NCBI RefSeq assembly: GCF_012912005.1
Contig: NZ_JABBEA010000001.1
Coordinates: 682,001 to 746,000, forward strand
DNA length: 64,000 nt
Source: Paenibacillus sp. SZ31
GTDB lineage: Bacteria; Bacillota; Bacilli; Paenibacillales; Paenibacillaceae
Direction: 5' to 3'
Shown: positions 14,235 to 23,162 of the stretch, in pieces
How positions within the stretch are numbered: the stretch's first letter is position 1
How the letters are laid out: each line of letters opens with the position of its first letter
The notes under the pieces: model-generated
Told to the model about the DNA's origin: nothing
The model's input: the letters and a program-made list of their open reading frames with translations, nothing else
Databases searched by the model: none
Program-made: the position numbers and the translations under genes

Positions 14235-16601
14235 CTATTCCAATTCTGCGACGGTCACACCGTTCCCGCCTTCTCCGTAATTGCCCAGCCGGTAACTTTT
14301 AATATGTTTATGCTTACGCAGGTAATCCTGAATACCGGAACGCAAAATTCCTGTACCTTTACCGTGAATAATATACACTTGGCCCAAGTTGGCAAGGAAA
14401 GCTTCATCAATGAAACGGTCTGTCTCCATCAGAGCTTCTTCTAGGTTGGTGCCACGCAGATCCAGTTCACTCTTCACGTTGTCATCACGCGTGCGCTTCA
14501 TGCCAGTTACCGGTTTTTGCTTCGGTTTGGCTGCGGGAGCAGATTGCTGCAGTTCCAGGTCATCCAGAGATACTTTCATTTTCATGATCCCCAGCTGCAC
14601 CATGGCGTCTTTGCTACCCGACATCTCCACAACATGGCCTTTTTGATTCAAACTATAGACCAGCACTTCATCACCAGGACCGATGGCACGCGTTTTCGGT
14701 GCTGCTGCCGTCTTCTTGACGGTCTTCCGGCGCTTCTCCGGTTCAGCTTCATCCAGCTGTTTACGGGCGGCAATAAGTTTGTGCTCCTTCACGGAAGCAC
14801 CTTCTTCCATAGCCAACAGACGAAGATCTGCGATAATCTTCTCCGCTTCGGCACGAGCCTTGTCCACAATATTACGTGCATCATCTTCTGCTTTTTCAAT
14901 CCGACGATCACGCTGCTGTTCCAGCTTTTCCAGTTCCGTCTGATGACGACTGCGTAATTTCTCCATGTCCTGGCGCAAGCTCTCTGCCTTCTCACGCTCT
15001 TGTTCAGCCGTAAGACGGTTCTCTTCAAGAGAAGCAATCATGTGCTCGATCCGTTGATCCTCTTCCTTCACTTCGCCACGGGCGTAATCGAGAATGTAAC
15101 CCGGCAGTCCCAGTCGCTCTGCAATGGCAAATGCATTACTTCGTCCAGGTACACCCACCAGAAGGCGATACGTCGGACTCAATGTATTAATGTCAAATTC
15201 CATGCTGGCATTAATGACGCCTTTACGCTCATATGCATATGCTTTTAGTTCACTGTAGTGGGTGGTTGCAACCATGCGACACCCCGTCCGGTGCATATGC
15301 TCGAGCATGGAGATCGCCAGTGCGGACCCTTCAGCCGGGTCTGTTCCCGCTCCAAGTTCATCAAGCAATACTAGGCTTTTTGGCGTCATGTTCTTCAGAA
15401 TGCGAATGATGTTCGTCATATGGCTGGAAAAAGTACTCAGATTCTGCTCAATACTCTGCTCGTCCCCAATGTCTGCATAGATCGCATCAAATACACATAG
15501 CTGGCTGCCATCCTCTGCCGGAACAAATAAACCGGACATTGCCATCAGGCTCAGCAAGCCAATCGTTTTGAGCGTTACCGTCTTACCACCCGTATTCGGA
15601 CCTGTCACGATAATGGATGTGTAATCATTGCCCAGCTCAATGTCGATTGGAACCACGTTTTCGATCGGTATCAACGGATGACGGCCTTTTTTCAGTTTGA
15701 GGAATCCGCGGTCATTCATGCGTGGTAGCGTTGCTTTCAGTTCACGAGCCAGACGTGCTTTGGCAAAAATAAAATCAAGCGATCCCAGCAAGTCGACATC
15801 ATACAGCAGCCATTCTCCCTGTTCACTGACAAGTGCCGTCAATTTCTGCAAAATAATTTCTATTTCGCGTTCTTCCCGAATCCGGGTTTCGCGCAATTTG
15901 TTGTTCATTGCAACGATGGATTCCGGCTCAATGAACAATGTGGCCCCCGAACCGGATTGATCATGCACAATCCCACCGAAGTACGAACGATATTCGGCTT
16001 TCACGGGGATAACAAAACGATCCCCTCTGATCGTGATCAGCTGATCCTGCAACATCTTGGATACGGTGGAGGATCGAATCATGGAATCCAGCTTCTCACG
16101 AATCCGCGCTTCTCCGCCTCGCAGCTCACGACGAATCTGCGCAAGCGTTACGCTTGCACTGTCGGCAACTTCTGCATTATCGTCGATACAGATTTTAATG
16201 GCATCCTCAAGCGTCTTTTGCTCTGACAGTTGATCACTGATATAGAACAAGGATTCAATGGGTTCATCTTCATGCAGAGTAGCAATCAGACGTTTCAATC
16301 GTCGTGCCGCAAAGGTCGTATTGGATATTCCCAAAAGCTCGTGAGGGTTAAGTGTGCCTCCAATTTCAGCACGTTTGATGGAGGCCGTAATGTCTACAAT
16401 CCCTCCAAAAGACGGCGAGCCTTTCAAGCGATCAAATGTAAAGGCTTCATCGGTTTGCTGAAGCAACCGATTCACTTCTTCAAGTTCACTGATCGGTTCA
16501 AGTTGCTCCGCTTTCTTTTTACCCATCGTGGTCTGGGCATAGCTAAGCAATGTATTTAAAATTTTGCGATATTCCAGTGTGTGTAAAATTTTCGTGTCCA
16601 A
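14235..16601 (-). CDS. mutS2: endonuclease MutS2
   Basis: 788 residues, close to the 785 of B. subtilis MutS2. In order: N-terminal helical core, the P-loop GPNTGGKT near residue 335, the Walker B/signature region ELGAGTDPAEGSAL, a long coiled-coil clamp (about 510-640), and a C-terminal Smr nuclease domain beginning SELDLRGTNLEEALME with IIHGKGTGILR and ending NGVTVAELE. MutS2 suppresses recombination and, in B. subtilis, acts on collided ribosomes to split them. TTG 16601 is chosen: GGAAGGAG lies eight bases upstream. Confidence 0.97.
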   Translation of the reverse strand: MDTKILHTLEYRKILNTLLSYAQTTMGKKKAEQLEPISELEEVNRLLQQTDEAFTFDRLKGSPSFGGIVDITASIKRAEIGGTLNPHELLGISNTTFAARRLKRLIATLHEDEPIESLFYISDQLSEQKTLEDAIKICIDDNAEVADSASVTLAQIRRELRGGEARIREKLDSMIRSSTVSKMLQDQLITIRGDRFVIPVKAEYRSYFGGIVHDQSGSGATLFIEPESIVAMNNKLRETRIREEREIEIILQKLTALVSEQGEWLLYDVDLLGSLDFIFAKARLARELKATLPRMNDRGFLKLKKGRHPLIPIENVVPIDIELGNDYTSIIVTGPNTGGKTVTLKTIGLLSLMAMSGLFVPAEDGSQLCVFDAIYADIGDEQSIEQNLSTFSSHMTNIIRILKNMTPKSLVLLDELGAGTDPAEGSALAISMLEHMHRTGCRMVATTHYSELKAYAYERKGVINASMEFDINTLSPTYRLLVGVPGRSNAFAIAERLGLPGYILDYARGEVKEEDQRIEHMIASLEENRLTAEQEREKAESLRQDMEKLRSRHQTELEKLEQQRDRRIEKAEDDARNIVDKARAEAEKIIADLRLLAMEEGASVKEHKLIAARKQLDEAEPEKRRKTVKKTAAAPKTRAIGPGDEVLVYSLNQKGHVVEMSGSKDAMVQLGIMKMKVSLDDLELQQSAPAAKPKQKPVTGMKRTRDDNVKSELDLRGTNLEEALMETDRFIDEAFLANLGQVYIIHGKGTGILRSGIQDYLRKHKHIKSYRLGNYGEGGNGVTVAELE

Positions 16602-16789
16602 GTGTACAACTCCTTCCAAACTATATCTGTATTATAACGAAAGAAACTTTCTTGCGCTATTTAACGAATCCTTCCACACATAACTTCAACCATAGCATCA
16701 CAAACTACAAGTGTCAGGATTGTGCAACCTCTCCGAGCCCCTTGGAGTTGCCATGCTCAGTTCAATCCGAATAAAAGGAGGTACACACC

Positions 16790-17149
16790 ATGAATTTCCT
16801 GGGACATGTCGTGCGATTTGTCATCGCTGCAATTGTATTAATGGTGGTCAGCTGGATCGTTCCCGGTTTCGCCGTTGGTGGCTTCTGGAGCGCTCTGTTG
16901 CTTGCTCTCGTCATTGCCCTGCTCGGCTGGATCGTTGAAGGTATCTTCGGCAAAAGGGTCAACCCGTTTGGGCGCGGTATTGTCGGATTTATCGTTAGCG
17001 CACTGGTGATTTGGCTAGGTCAATATGTTGTAGATCATGTTGAGGTCAGCCTGCTCGGCGCCATTCTCGCTGCGCTGGTTATCGGGATTATCGACCTCTT
17101 CATCCCGGTATCCACCCCTTTTGATGCCGGACGAAGCTCCAAAAGCTAA
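16790..17149 (+). CDS. small holin-superfamily IV (YvlD-like) membrane protein
   Basis: 119 residues with four hydrophobic helices and the pattern of the 4TM YvlD/phage holin superfamily IV: VLMVVSWIVPGFAVGGFWSA, WIVEGIFGKRVNPFGRGIVG, LGAILAALVIGIIDLF. Despite the name, chromosomal members of this family are not known lysis proteins. AAGGAGG precedes ATG 16790. Divergent from mutS2 and followed by its own terminator. Confidence 0.85.
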   Translation: MNFLGHVVRFVIAAIVLMVVSWIVPGFAVGGFWSALLLALVIALLGWIVEGIFGKRVNPFGRGIVGFIVSALVIWLGQYVVDHVEVSLLGAILAALVIGIIDLFIPVSTPFDAGRSSKS

Positions 17150-17185
17150 TCCCAGCTTCTCCTTTTCATCCCCATGAATGCTTCT

Positions 17186-17217
17186 AAACCTCTGAAGGCC
17201 TGTGCCGGATGAGGTTT
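17186..17217 (+). terminator. probable terminator after YvlD-like gene
   Basis: AAACCTC and GAGGTTT pair with an inner GGCC-like stem; TATTTCATTT follows. Confidence 0.55.
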
Positions 17218-17370
17218 ATTTCATTTGAAGACGTAATGAACCATTCACTCAAGCATGTACAATTTTCAACAAAACGACATACGCAGCGTGTACAGGCATC
17301 CACATATTGCGGTATGATGACTGGAGCAATCATTCACATTTTATCCATATCACGCTTAAGGAGGCACATG

Positions 17371-17757
17371 ATGAAGAAAGGCATAGCATGGCTTGCTGCC
17401 TGTATGTTAATTCTCGTCCTCGCTGCATGCGGAGGGGCGAATCAGTCTGCAGACTCTGGCAGTAATGGGTCCGATTCTGGTGTTACAGCCAGCGAAGAAC
17501 TGGTCATCAAGGCAAGCAACTACGAATTCGATCAACCCGAGTACCATCTTAAAAAAGGTGTCCCGGTTAACATTGTTTATGAAAATGTAAACGGAAATCA
17601 CGGAATACTCGTGCCTGAGCTGAATCTTATGCTGGACACCAGAAACAGTTCCAAAGTGATTACCCCGGACAAAGTCGGTGAGTTTGAAATGTCCTGTTCG
17701 GTCTTCTGTGGTTCGGGACACAGCAGCATGATCTCCAAAATTATCGTTGAAGAATAG
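17371..17757 (+). CDS. cupredoxin lipoprotein with CuA-type motif
   Basis: About 128 residues. A signal peptide with lipobox LAAC is followed by a Ser/Gly/Asp-rich linker and one cupredoxin domain (about 45-128). The motif CSVFCGSGHSSM fits C-x3-C-x3-H-x2-M, the CuA site of cytochrome c oxidase subunit II, with an upstream His in GNHGI. It lacks the COX2 transmembrane hairpin, so it is a free-standing outer-face lipoprotein that may bind copper for electron transfer or for delivery. GGAGG at 17360-17364 best fits ATG 17371; ATG 17368 is three bases away. No other respiratory gene is adjacent. Confidence 0.85.
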   Translation: MKKGIAWLAACMLILVLAACGGANQSADSGSNGSDSGVTASEELVIKASNYEFDQPEYHLKKGVPVNIVYENVNGNHGILVPELNLMLDTRNSSKVITPDKVGEFEMSCSVFCGSGHSSMISKIIVEE

Positions 17758-17861: not shown

Positions 17862-20570
17862 CTAGGTCTGGTCCTGTTCAATCAATTCAATCCATTCGTT
17901 ATATTCCGTCTGCAATTTCGTATATTCATCATGCAACTGACGATATTCCGTATTCAGCTGCTCTGCCTTTTCCTGCTCCATCCCACGTTCAACCTGCAAC
18001 AAACGTAATTGATTGGCCGCTAGTTCGTAACGTTCACTCATCTCAAGCAGTTCATTTTCCATGATCTGTTTCTCTTGAGTCGCTTCTGCCCGTGATTGGT
18101 CCAGCTGCTGTCGTTCTTGCTCCAGTCCCTCTAGCAACTCGCTACTTGCCGCACTTTCTCTCTTCCATACTGTCAGTTCATTCTCAAGCGCAGCCCACCG
18201 TTCCTGCCAGGATTGTTCCTGAGCTGCCCATTCATCTGCACGGCGTTGCCACACTTGGTCGTTCTGCTCTGCTTGTGCAACGCTGGAGCGGAGTTCTTCT
18301 TCACGTCTCGTCAACTGCTCCAGACGGGATGACAACTCGGCCTGTTTGGCTGACAACTCTTCGTGTTTGATCTGCCACTCCAACGCTTCTTCCTCAGTCT
18401 GGGCTAGCCGGCTCTCTTGCTCCGAGTAGCGCTCGGACAGTTTCGCTGAAGATTGTCTTGCTTCTTCAAGCGCTCTTACAATCTCTTGCTTCTCCGTACT
18501 CAATTCATCCAGCTTGGAACTGTAATTCTCTTCTCGTTGTAATGCATCACTGTAGTCGTTACGGATTTGTTTATAATTATCCTGAAGTCGGTTCAACTCT
18601 TCCCGCACAACATTTAGCTCCACTTCAAGCTGTTTGCGTTGTTCTTCTAAAAGCTCTGCTTCCTTCTGATAATGCACAGCCTCTTCATGGTTGAAACGAG
18701 ACTCTTCCTTCACCACGGATAATTCATCATGAAGGGATTGCACACCAGACTCCAGCGTTTCATTTTGTTCAGCAACTTCGAGAATCTGATTCTCCAGGTC
18801 GCCGATCTCAGCCAGTCGCTGCTCAGCAAGGTCTTTCAAGGACTGCTCACGTTCCGTAAGTGTGCCGATCTCATTCTGCAATGTACGCACCGCAGCATGA
18901 GCCTGTTCTAGCACCTTATGCAACCTGCGCTGTTCCTCTTCCGACTTCACTTCAGCCTCACGAAGGTTTTGGGCTTCCTGTTCAAGCTGTGTATGTTGTT
19001 CCTGAAGTTTGCGCAACTGTGCTGTGAGAGAGGTTTCTCTATCCACAGTTTCGTTATACTTCTGCTTCCATTGTTCCTGTGCATCACGGGATTGCTGGGC
19101 AGCTTGCTCCGTCTCACGCAGAAGCTCCTGCAACTGGGAACGATCCTCTTTTAACTGTTCCAATTGCTGCTCCAGTTCCGTGATTCGGCGAGTCTGAACT
19201 TCCTGCTCCTGTTTACGGACCCCATGCTCATGACGCAATGTTTCCAATTGACCACGCTCGTGCTGAAGCTGCTGTTCTTGCTCTGCAACCACGTCCTGTG
19301 CACTGATGAGCTGAGTCATCACTTCTTCCAATTGCTCTTCGACATCTAATAGTCGAGTCTCCGCCTGTTTACGTTGTTCCTCAAGCTGCTGCTTGAGCTT
19401 GCCACGTTCTTCTTGCAATAAGGCCTCTGCCGCCGATGCGGCTTCTGTTGCGCGGGATGCTGCTGCTTCCTTGGCTTGCTGCAATTGTTCCTCGAGGGCT
19501 GCTTCTTTCTCCATCCATTCGAGTTCCGACTGCTCGGATAACGCTTTGAACTCCGCATTCAATTGATTCACTTGAGTCAGGCGCTTCTGCTCCGCTTGCT
19601 CCTGCAAAGTAGCGCGCTCTTGATTCGATTGATCCGTCAGAGCCTGAGTCTGTTCCAGCGCTTTTTCTTCAGCCTGCTGGAGGCGAAGTTCCATCTGTTG
19701 TTGAAGTTCATTATATTGCAGTGCCGCTTCTTCCTGGGCTTTCTTCAAATTGGCCTCAGCCTGCTCCAACTCGGACAGTATGGCGGATTCGGCTTCTTCC
19801 TTGGCTGTCTGAACTTGCTGTGCAGCCTTGGCTTCAATTTGTTGACGTTCTGCAACGGCACGACTTTCGGCTTCTTTCAATTGAGCTGCAGTCTTGTCCT
19901 GCAATTCTTTATATTGCGCGGCAGCTTTGGCCTGTGCTTGTTGCAGTTCGGCTACAGAACGATTCTGAGCTTCTTTAAGCTGTGAAGCGGCCTGTGCCTG
20001 TGCAGTTTTAAACTGATTTGCCGCTTTTTCTTCCATTTCCTTCAGCTGTCTCGCTGCCTTGGCTTCTGCTTCCTTGAGTTGTGCCGTAGTTTGAGACTGC
20101 AATTTCTGCACTCGCTCTGTTGCCTGGGCACGCTCCTGCTCAAGCAATGTGTTTAACTTAGCCATTTCTGCTTGCTTGTCCGTTTCGGCCTTCTGCAGCG
20201 CCTGCTCTGCTTGAAGCTTCAGCTTCTGCAATTCAGCAAGAGACTGGTCACGTCGTTCCAATTCTTGTTGATGTTCATTTTGTATGGCGTTCAACCGATT
20301 CAATTCGTTTCTCAGTTCTGTACGTTCTCCAGTAAGCATCTTCAGTTCATTCCGGATTTCCTGAGTCTGAAGAGACTGTTCAGCCATATGTACAGCCGCC
20401 AGTACCGCAATACGCGGAGTATCCAGACGGGAATTTTGCTTGGAGATCGCGCTCATACGCTCATCTACCAGGTTAGCTACTTGTTTCATATAGTCGGCAC
20501 TGCTGCCAACCAGTTTATAGGAAGTCCCGTATATATCTACGGTGACGCGTGTACGATCAGGTGTAGTCAC
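17862..20570 (-). CDS. ZapA-domain protein fused to giant coiled coil
   Basis: 902 residues. The N-terminal 85 or so match ZapA, the FtsZ-ring stabiliser: VTVDIYGTSYKLVGSSADYM, ANLVDERMSAI, DTPRIAVLAAVHMAEQ. B. subtilis ZapA ends there (about 85 residues). Here about 800 more residues of Gln/Glu/Leu-rich coiled coil follow, without a membrane segment or signal peptide. A run of 11-residue repeats occupies about residues 163-305; the remainder is heptad-like. GTG 20570 is chosen because AAGGAGG lies eight bases upstream. It sits next to pheT, as zapA does in B. subtilis, supporting orthology of the N-terminus. Likely a cytosolic division-ring cross-linker, by inference. It has its own transcription unit. 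Confidence 0.88.
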   Translation of the reverse strand: MTTPDRTRVTVDIYGTSYKLVGSSADYMKQVANLVDERMSAISKQNSRLDTPRIAVLAAVHMAEQSLQTQEIRNELKMLTGERTELRNELNRLNAIQNEHQQELERRDQSLAELQKLKLQAEQALQKAETDKQAEMAKLNTLLEQERAQATERVQKLQSQTTAQLKEAEAKAARQLKEMEEKAANQFKTAQAQAASQLKEAQNRSVAELQQAQAKAAAQYKELQDKTAAQLKEAESRAVAERQQIEAKAAQQVQTAKEEAESAILSELEQAEANLKKAQEEAALQYNELQQQMELRLQQAEEKALEQTQALTDQSNQERATLQEQAEQKRLTQVNQLNAEFKALSEQSELEWMEKEAALEEQLQQAKEAAASRATEAASAAEALLQEERGKLKQQLEEQRKQAETRLLDVEEQLEEVMTQLISAQDVVAEQEQQLQHERGQLETLRHEHGVRKQEQEVQTRRITELEQQLEQLKEDRSQLQELLRETEQAAQQSRDAQEQWKQKYNETVDRETSLTAQLRKLQEQHTQLEQEAQNLREAEVKSEEEQRRLHKVLEQAHAAVRTLQNEIGTLTEREQSLKDLAEQRLAEIGDLENQILEVAEQNETLESGVQSLHDELSVVKEESRFNHEEAVHYQKEAELLEEQRKQLEVELNVVREELNRLQDNYKQIRNDYSDALQREENYSSKLDELSTEKQEIVRALEEARQSSAKLSERYSEQESRLAQTEEEALEWQIKHEELSAKQAELSSRLEQLTRREEELRSSVAQAEQNDQVWQRRADEWAAQEQSWQERWAALENELTVWKRESAASSELLEGLEQERQQLDQSRAEATQEKQIMENELLEMSERYELAANQLRLLQVERGMEQEKAEQLNTEYRQLHDEYTKLQTEYNEWIELIEQDQT
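19656..20084 (-). repeat. 13 in-phase 11-residue coding repeats in the ZapA-like protein
   Basis: Reading the protein from this point, successive 11-residue blocks align without gaps: AQLKEAEAKAA, RQLKEMEEKAA, NQFKTAQAQAA, SQLKEAQNRSV, AELQQAQAKAA, AQYKELQDKTA, AQLKEAESRAV, AERQQIEAKAA, QQVQTAKEEAE, then four weaker ones to LRLQQAEEKAL. The first nine cover about 19788-20084. Hendecad periodicity differs from the heptads around it. Confidence 0.85.
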
Positions 20571-20622
20571 AGTTGTGCCCTCCTTCAAGTCTGTATGTTG
20601 ATTCTAAGCTGTAATCACAAAA

Positions 20623-20664
20623 AAGTCACATCGATCCTCTAATGCTAAGGATTCGATGTGACTT
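20623..20664 (-). terminator. terminator between pheT and the ZapA-like gene
   Basis: AAGTCACATCGA and TCGATGTGACTT form a 12-bp stem; on the minus strand TTTTTT follows. Confidence 0.88.
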
Positions 20665-20708
20665 CAAACAATTCCTGCTAATCTTTGTTCAAAAAATCTT
20701 CTTCTGGC

Positions 20709-23162
20709 CTATTTACGCAATTCCGCTCCGAATTGCTCTTCCAGACGAGCCACTACACGGGCATGAACTTCAGTAACTTCCTCATCAGTCAGTGTACGTT
20801 CACGATTCCGGTACACCAGCGCCATCGCCACGCTCTTCTTGTTTTCGCCCAGTTTGCTGCCCGTGAATATATCGAATACCTGTACGGTTTGCAGCAACTC
20901 ACCCGCTGATTCACGAATGGCGCGCAGCATATCTCCAGCTTCAATATCCTCATTCACAACAACCGCGATATCACGTTCCATGGCTGGGAAACGCGGAAGT
21001 TCACGATAACGTATGTCAGCGTCTGCTTCATTGTAGATCGATTCAAGTACAATCTCTGCGATGTACACATCATTCAGATCATACTGCTGTTGCAGTTCCG
21101 GATGCAATTGACCCAATGTACCGATCAATGTGCCTTCTCCGCCATCCTTCCCTTCCAGATAAACCGATGCAGAACGTCCCGGATGGAAACCTTCAGGACT
21201 GTTTGCTACCAAGCGAATGCGTTGTTCCAAACCCACATAGGCGAACAGATGCTCAAGCGCACCTTTCAGATCGAAGAAGTCTACTTTCTCCGCTCCAACA
21301 TTCCATTGCTGGCTTGCACGATTCCCGGTAAGCAGCAAGCCCAATACCGGAATCTCATGTGGTTGCTTGGTCAATTGATCTTCTTCAGTGAAGAATACAT
21401 TGCCCACTTCAAATACAGCCAGTGAATCCTGTTTACGGTTCATATTATACACCGCTGCATCCAGCATTTGCGGCAAAATACTCGTACGAAGCACACTGCG
21501 GTCCTCACTCATAGGCATCGCGAGCTTCACGGCTTTACTTCCTTGTGTCAGCGCCGGGAACAGAGTCGCTTTATCCGGGTGTACAAAGGAGTAACTAATC
21601 ATTTCCTGCCAGCCACTGCCTGAGAGCAATCCACGAATCGTACGACGCATCGCTTGAGAGCGTGTATACGCACCCGGAGTCGTCGGTCCTTCAATCCAAG
21701 TGGTTGGAATGTTGTCATATCCGTACAGTCGTGCAATCTCTTCAAACAAGTCTACGTCGAGCGTAATATCCCCTCTGCGTGTGGGTACTTCCACATCCAG
21801 CAATCCTTGATCAGCATCACCACATGCAAAGTGCAAGCGAGCGAAGATGGTTTTCACCTCAAGCAATGACAGATCTGTTCCCAGATAACGATTCAGTCGG
21901 TCCAGCGACAATTGAATTACACGTTTCTCCGCAGCTTCTGCTCCAGCTTCCACAATTCCCTGGTGCACTTCACCTTCAGCATAACGCTGAATCAGTTCAG
22001 CCGCACGATCCAAAGCCGTAATGACCGCACCCGGATCTACTTCCTTCTCAAAACGCATGCTTGCTTCGGAACGCAGCCCCAGTTGGCGCGACGTTTTCCG
22101 AACGGTTCCGCCGTCGAACTTGGCGGACTCCAGCAACAGATTTACCGTGCTTTCCGACACCTCGGAATTCTCGCCACCCATAACCCCAGCGATGGCTACC
22201 GGTTTCACGCCATCTGTGATAAGCAACATATGTGGCTCCAGCTTACGCTCTTGGCCATCCAACGTAACAATCGTTTCGCCTTCGTTGGCCATCCGCACTT
22301 CAATATGACCTTTTTCCAGCTTATCCGCATCGAATGCATGTAGCGGTTGGCCGTATTCCAGCATGACATAGTTCGTGATATCAACGATGTTATTGATCGG
22401 ACGAACACCTGCAGCCATCAGACGGTTTTGCATCCACAGCGGGGAAGCACCCAGCTTAATGCCGGTTACATAACGAGCTGCATAGTGACTGCATTGCTCT
22501 TGTGCCTTAATCTCTACCGAGATATGATTCGCAGCCGCATCACCAACCTCAACCAGTTGGTCTTTGGGACTCGGCAGCTTCACTTCACGACCCAGGATGG
22601 CACCCACTTCATAAGCTGCACCACGCATGCTGAGACAGTCGGAACGGTTCGGTGTCAGGTCCAGTTCAAGCACATGATCGTCGAGACCAAGAACCTGGCT
22701 GATTGGCGTGCCAACCTCCGTTTGTTCTGGCAGAACGAGAATACCTTCCTGCTGATCTTTCGGCAGCAATTTGTCGTTCATGCCCAGTTCTTTGGCGGAA
22801 CAGATCATGCCCAGGGAGACAACACCGCGCAGTTTTGCTTTTTTGATATCCAATCCACCAGGGAGCTTCGCTCCAACCAGGGCTACGACTACTTTTTGGC
22901 CTGCATCCACATTTTTCGCGCCACACACGATTTGCAGATCTTCTTCCTGACCAGCATCGATGACACATACATTAAGTTTGTCGGCATCCGGGTGTTTCTC
23001 CTTGCTCTTCACATAACCCACAACAACTTTATTCACGCCCTTGTTGCGGTTCTCCACTACATCAATTTCTACTCCCGCACGGGTGATTTTCTCTGCCAAT
23101 TCCTGTGGCGTCACACCTTCAAGGGAAATATAATCAGACAGCCAATCTGTCGATACTCTCAT
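20709..23162 (-). CDS. pheT: phenylalanyl-tRNA synthetase beta subunit
   Basis: 817 residues, normal length. In order: N-terminal EMAP/tRNA-binding fold (about 40-150, GYVKSKEKHPDADKLNVC), B3/B4 editing domain, B5 domain with RGDITLDVDLFEEIARLYGY, the catalytic-like core, and the C-terminal FDX-ACB anticodon domain (RFPAMERDIAVVV). Joins PheS in an alpha2-beta2 enzyme charging tRNA-Phe. It follows pheS by 82 bases in the T-box operon. GAAGGAAG precedes ATG 23162. Confidence 0.98.
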   Translation of the reverse strand: MRVSTDWLSDYISLEGVTPQELAEKITRAGVEIDVVENRNKGVNKVVVGYVKSKEKHPDADKLNVCVIDAGQEEDLQIVCGAKNVDAGQKVVVALVGAKLPGGLDIKKAKLRGVVSLGMICSAKELGMNDKLLPKDQQEGILVLPEQTEVGTPISQVLGLDDHVLELDLTPNRSDCLSMRGAAYEVGAILGREVKLPSPKDQLVEVGDAAANHISVEIKAQEQCSHYAARYVTGIKLGASPLWMQNRLMAAGVRPINNIVDITNYVMLEYGQPLHAFDADKLEKGHIEVRMANEGETIVTLDGQERKLEPHMLLITDGVKPVAIAGVMGGENSEVSESTVNLLLESAKFDGGTVRKTSRQLGLRSEASMRFEKEVDPGAVITALDRAAELIQRYAEGEVHQGIVEAGAEAAEKRVIQLSLDRLNRYLGTDLSLLEVKTIFARLHFACGDADQGLLDVEVPTRRGDITLDVDLFEEIARLYGYDNIPTTWIEGPTTPGAYTRSQAMRRTIRGLLSGSGWQEMISYSFVHPDKATLFPALTQGSKAVKLAMPMSEDRSVLRTSILPQMLDAAVYNMNRKQDSLAVFEVGNVFFTEEDQLTKQPHEIPVLGLLLTGNRASQQWNVGAEKVDFFDLKGALEHLFAYVGLEQRIRLVANSPEGFHPGRSASVYLEGKDGGEGTLIGTLGQLHPELQQQYDLNDVYIAEIVLESIYNEADADIRYRELPRFPAMERDIAVVVNEDIEAGDMLRAIRESAGELLQTVQVFDIFTGSKLGENKKSVAMALVYRNRERTLTDEEVTEVHARVVARLEEQFGAELRK

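Follow-up and report, generated by a model that had tools for sequence, protein, structure and literature searches.

A long coil on the only ZapA of Paenibacillus and its order: a candidate long-reach cross-linker of the Z-ring

The only ZapA encoded by Paenibacillus sp. SZ31 is a protein of 902 residues, in which a ZapA head continues into a coil of about 800 residues that ends in a short conserved tip. Comparison across genomes indicates that this is no one-off fusion: the long form is the only ZapA that the order has. We put the probability at roughly one half that the protein, with a predicted FtsZ-binding head on a stalk of about 120 nm, serves as a long-reach cross-linker of the Z-ring, flexible rather than a ruler. 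As such it may link division filaments beyond the reach of any known ZapA. The gene lies within a stretch of 64,000 nucleotides, here called the window, with the following features of interest:

17862 to 20570, minus strand: long zapA gene, 902 aa, GTG start and TAG stop; intact open reading frame, with the VTTPDR start conserved in congeners
20579 to 20585, minus strand: ribosome binding site AAGGAGG, 8 nt before the GTG at 20570 (from the sequence)
20373 to 20570, minus strand: ZapA head, residues 1-66, an FtsZ-binding dimer head by homology (Pfam, AlphaFold2 model, Foldseek matches 2mmv, 1w2e, 4p1m and 9isk)
19266 to 20285, minus strand: proximal coil, residues 96-435, mostly hendecad with period 3.67 (Fourier scan)
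19722 to 20084, minus strand: eleven consecutive 11-residue repeats, residues 163-283, beginning AQLKEAEAKAA (identity at lags 11, 22 and 33 of 0.33-0.37)
17931 to 19325, minus strand: distal coil, residues 416-880, heptad with period 3.5 (Fourier scan)
17877 to 17927, minus strand: conserved tip, residues 882-898, EYTKLQTEYNEWIELIE, like the terminal helix of short ZapAs (family comparison, profile scans)
20709 to 23162, minus strand: pheT, the conserved upstream neighbour (locus comparison)
14235 to 16619, minus strand: mutS2, the downstream neighbour in most loci (locus comparison)
20605 to 20670, minus strand: hairpin followed by T6 between pheT and zapA (RNA fold -24.5 kcal/mol, z -5.6)

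The assignment to ZapA rests on several properties of the head. Pfam ZapA (PF05164) matches residues 9-94 with 50.3 bits against a curated cut-off of 23.8. The NCBIfam equivalog PRK14126 matches residues 3-78 with 58 bits, below its cut-off of 80; as this is a model of short ZapA, the low score weakens a claim of equivalence for the long protein but not its homology. Modelled with AlphaFold2 on the basis of 31 Paenibacillus sequences, residues 1-140 form two strands, a helix at 25-45 and a helix at 52-139 (pLDDT 85), which is the order of elements in ZapA. The seven best PDB matches of this model in Foldseek are all ZapA, with modest scores (2mmv best, E 1.6e-3, then among others 1w2e, 4p1m, 1t3u, 9isk and 9isj). 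The protein is also the sole PF05164 match in a genome that is 99.99% complete, and its gene follows pheT. Its size departs from that of a ZapA, 902 residues instead of about 85-110. By domain, fold, locus and copy number, and not by size, it is thus classified from its sequence as a ZapA variant for which FtsZ binding is predicted. Matches to SMC models were confined to the coil (42.6 bits against a cut-off of 567), and ATPase heads flanking it were not found. Neither PF06160 nor the N-terminal membrane anchor of EzrA was detected, Pfam returning ZapA only.

The order pheS-pheT-zapA, in most cases with mutS2 downstream, is kept in nearly all of 120 related loci. The hairpin with its T6 tract is probably the pheST terminator, and together with a promoter-like site between pheT and zapA (20629-20601, minus strand) it suggests that zapA is transcribed apart from pheST. 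Between zapA and mutS2, on the strand opposite to zapA (16790-17757, plus strand), lie genes for a Phage_holin_4_2-type membrane protein and a lipoprotein-like protein of cupredoxin type; most relatives have both of them near zapA.

A gene of this length could owe its single frame to a frameshift, a mis-assembly or chance. Five of the fetched relatives (L068, L200, L210, L211 and L213, of which L210 and L211 are two contigs from one assembly) indeed carry a shifted frame in the coil, either by sequencing error or by recent decay, though the tip continues in another frame. Against an artefact in the 902-residue frame stand the 31 aligned congeners, at least 68% identical, which keep one frame, the conservation of the far end, and dN/dS values of 0.08-0.12 for the coil and 0.04-0.09 for the tip. 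These observations refute the artefact reading for practical purposes. The low coil dN/dS of about 0.1 and the sizes of the indels described below indicate that the coil is under selection. An earlier note, made from the letters of this DNA, had proposed an N-terminal ZapA domain, and had named as fatal to its proposal a split gene, a domain search that places the first 85 residues elsewhere, and homologues without the ZapA part. The Pfam match and the PDB matches of the head model bear the domain out, the open reading frame is intact and under purifying selection, and the family-wide comparison produced no homologues lacking the head.

Beyond about residue 52 the whole chain is predicted to be helical. 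The 807 residues past the head contain no proline, no cysteine and eight glycines, and the highest 19-residue Kyte-Doolittle mean is 0.64, so that a membrane anchor is not indicated. A whole-chain model from the single sequence was poor (pLDDT 62); it was used for helix content alone and set aside as a structure. The periodicity of the coil changes along its length. Hydrophobic periodicity near 11/3 is significant in the windows 96-195, 176-275 and 336-435, while that of 256-355 is weaker than in shuffled sequences, and the distal part is heptad. The same polarity recurs in the family, where the final fifth of the coil is 92% heptad and hendecad-like periodicity makes up about 62% of the first two fifths; two members of genus g7, with heptads throughout, are exceptions. 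An antiparallel arrangement with full overlap would pair unlike halves, which makes it more likely that the two chains of the stalk run parallel. A continuous coil of 831 residues at 0.1485 nm per residue would measure about 123 nm. The coil of about 800 residues and the lack of a membrane anchor had both been claimed before, as had a reach of 100 nm or more if the coil is continuous, and all three agree with these values.

Changes in coil length have respected its phase. In a set of 32 proteins with at least 68% identity (the distant L224, at 36%, was left out because its alignment gave spurious gaps) there are 13 distinct alignment gaps with lengths of 4, 7, 11, 21, 22, 28, 33 or 42 residues. 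They represent whole helical turns, coming in elevens where the coil is hendecad and in sevens where it is heptad. Since slippage of repeat units can give the same sizes, the indels show preservation of phase and not necessarily selection on length. The 29,151 coil residues of 38 long ZapAs include 13 prolines, several of which sit in the last residues of the chain. Column identity in the clade is 0.95 for the head and 0.94 for the tip, with 0.57-0.83 for the coil between them.

The tip offers a view of how the length may have arisen. The sequence EYxKLQxEYNEWIELIE or a close variant ends all 38 extracted full-length family members, which come from 17 of the 19 genera and span 275-1616 residues. 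The terminal helices of 39 distinct short ZapAs from other families (EYFKLRQEYEELIKLLE, directly after AVNIAD) were turned into a position-specific profile, which was scored against a background composed of the coils themselves. In 36 of the 38 long ZapAs this profile places the tip ahead of every other coil window (mean z 5.4). Its reversed version achieves this in one of 38, and column shuffles in 0.5 on average, though one shuffle reached 27. Conversely, a profile built from the tip hits the terminal helix of 39 out of 42 short ZapAs, and in all 35 long ones compared the tip scores higher than the segment next to the head. Because the 38 tips are nearly identical they are not independent, and the location carries an effective weight of about one in several hundred. 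Among 30 proteins from the sister families of the order, 26 have their best profile window no more than 40 residues from the C-terminus. Two sister-family proteins (L282, L308) retain an ancestral-looking segment beside the head in addition to a tip, which weakens a pure insertion between head and terminal helix; duplication of that helix followed by stretching fits better. In family f54 (L278, L287, L291, L301) a proline-containing linker separates coil and conserved tip. The tip is therefore a module of its own, and a continuous coil is not universal. Long ZapA thus appears to have grown from within, its own terminal helix being stretched or duplicated while the tip was kept at the far end. 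Of the earlier description as a ZapA fused to a coil, the head on a coil stands, but a simple one-off C-terminal fusion does not suffice, as the far end is a conserved module of 17-20 residues that resembles ZapA itself.

A survey of ZapA lengths, which had been proposed as a check, gives a long form in the family, graded lengths in the order and short proteins elsewhere in the class. The nearest named relatives belong to the Paenibacillus amylolyticus/xylanexedens group, of which L176 and L177 show 97% identity along the entire protein. On the strength of these names, the family of the window is taken to be Paenibacillaceae and its order Paenibacillales. Each of the 75 genomes in the genus encodes a single ZapA, in an open frame of 369-1066 residues; the shortest is a frameshifted copy. 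In the family of the window (f1, 247 genomes in 19 genera) 246 genomes pass the first ZapA search. Frames span 275-1616 residues among the matches listed, and every member listed or re-checked is long; this range rests on those members, about 80 weaker matches not being listed individually. When 16 family genomes, chiefly those with the weakest matches, were re-examined, 15 showed frames of 400-1346 residues, and G167 showed no match despite its match in the first search. The other families of the order form a graded series with the same tip, from 129 to 1746 residues: 129 (f50), 149-189 (f58), 160-698 (f55), 176-177 (f56), 195 (f57), 219-419 (f54), 221 (f51), 220 (f59), 266 (f52), 828 (f49) and 137-1746 (f53). 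The order thereby reaches up to about twenty times the usual ZapA length. Frames in the rest of the class measure 74-258 residues, in many cases with unread upstream codons counted in. Family f25 (L107, L142, L141, L150) shows a second series of growing ZapAs, smaller and apparently independent of the long-ZapA order, with 99-104, 133 and 219 residues. L107 carries tandem RRERDEL heptads and keeps an LLLDE-type end. Lengths differ about sixfold within the family and by a factor of more than ten within the order, which makes a precise molecular ruler unlikely, and that function was rejected.

From studies on other ZapAs it is known that the heads bind the N-terminal tail of FtsZ, where Phe4 has been proposed as the hook in Gram-positives (PMC12216130), and that the tetramer has the shape of a dumbbell whose two ends are dimer heads (PMC12216130, PMC12754632). 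This tetramer cross-links FtsZ filaments into ladders (PMC12216130), and in E. coli tetramerisation is essential for function (PMC12754632). The FtsZ of the present genome starts MLEFDFE and has Phe at the hook position. In the cross-linker reading, two heads of long ZapA would dimerise and bind FtsZ as other ZapAs do, the chains would run parallel in the stalk, and the tips would join one another or some other partner. The resemblance of the tip to the terminal helix of ZapA itself points to self-association, and we infer tip-to-tip pairing. A tetramer at the tip is not required, since the short ZapA of Bacillota may go no further than a dimer (the title of PDB 2mmv names a mutant dimer). Pairing would hold head pairs about 120 to 250 nm apart, and the protein, with a reach far above that of the short tetramer, would gather the FtsZ filaments of the Z-ring into bundles or set their spacing. 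The wide variation in length favours a flexible long-reach cross-linker over a ruler. The long-reach Z-ring organiser of the earlier note agrees with all sequence tests that were run and is plausible. A more far-reaching version, which we regard as tentative and rather unlikely, is an order-wide conversion of the only ZapA, in which parallel stalks of about 100-250 nm with self-pairing tips build an FtsZ super-lattice and take over the spacing work done elsewhere by EzrA or ZapB. If true, such a lattice would organise the Z-ring at a scale set by one protein.

Other arrangements of the same parts should be considered. The stalk could point away from the ring, with the heads on FtsZ, the parallel coil extending into the cytoplasm and the tip bound to a nucleoid-associated or divisome protein, so that one chain performs the work of ZapA, ZapB and MatP. 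The suggested parallel polarity agrees with such a tether, as does a tip that is far better conserved than the coil and persists behind the flexible linker of f54, and in E. coli and Caulobacter ZapA is tied to the chromosome via coiled-coil partners (PMC12754632). The likeness of the tip to ZapA's own helix, however, favours self-association; we consider the tether possible but on the unlikely side. Known tetramers, with a dimer head at either end (PMC12216130, PMC12754632), would have their closest counterpart in a giant antiparallel dumbbell of fully overlapping chains with heads about 120 nm apart. This would pair the half of period 3.67 with the half of period 3.5, an asymmetry that recurs family-wide, and renders the dumbbell improbable.

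The length itself might be largely neutral, produced by slippage of in-phase 21- and 33-bp units in a tolerant helix and without function. Wide length differences within families and gap sizes that slippage alone can produce are compatible with neutral growth, but a coil dN/dS near 0.1, the near absence of proline and the lack of any return to the short form in the family speak against it, and we give it little credence. A similarly low probability is assigned to replacement of EzrA. EzrA is a long, spectrin-like FtsZ-binding protein of other Bacilli, many families of which score 160-660 bits for it. The present genome lacks it, with best matches of 15.7-16.1 bits, one of them a chemoreceptor. 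A diverged EzrA in the family was also considered and dismissed: the EzrA-scoring proteins examined are other coiled-coil proteins, L061-L063 having N-terminal domains of their own and L173 being a chemoreceptor. However, families f6, f7, f17 and f18 lack EzrA and have a short ZapA, so that EzrA loss does not predict long ZapA; as a cause it was rejected, there being no correlation across the families of the class. The class-wide search also revealed, in several Bacilli families, EzrA-like frames of about 740-885 residues with weaker matches than the classical EzrA of about 570 residues, possibly a further example of a lengthened division coil.

Long ZapA is of interest for how the spacing and coherence of FtsZ filaments depend on cross-linkers of the ZapA type. 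A natural series of linkers from about 130 to about 1750 residues, with a constant head and the tip in nearly all, makes the role of linker length directly testable, with a bearing on Z-ring width, filament spacing and constriction. The order includes common soil and insect-associated bacteria, and a tenfold larger core division protein throughout it constitutes a gap in the annotation of bacterial division. No description of a long ZapA was found in the literature on ZapA with Paenibacillus, Paenibacillaceae or hendecads, a search that covered few subscription journals.

In comparison with known systems, the protein is closest to the ZapA of Bacillota (the B. subtilis type; 2mmv is from Geobacillus), with which it shares head sequence, fold, pheT neighbourhood and single copy. 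These proteins have about 90 residues instead of 902, whereas in long ZapA the terminal helix appears stretched or duplicated and the tip lies some 800 residues away. The ZapA tetramers of E. coli, K. pneumoniae and P. aeruginosa (4p1m, 9isk, 1w2e) likewise consist of a head followed by a C-terminal coil, but their coil measures tens of residues with a head at each end, while the long form is probably parallel. EzrA of Bacilli is also long, coil-rich and associated with FtsZ, as predicted here for long ZapA. The analogy is functional only: a sequence relation was not found, and EzrA is membrane-anchored and absent from this genome. The ZapA-ZapB-MatP system of E. coli, a linkage made by separate proteins, offers an analogy, in that ZapA is extended inward there by coiled coil, as it may be here.
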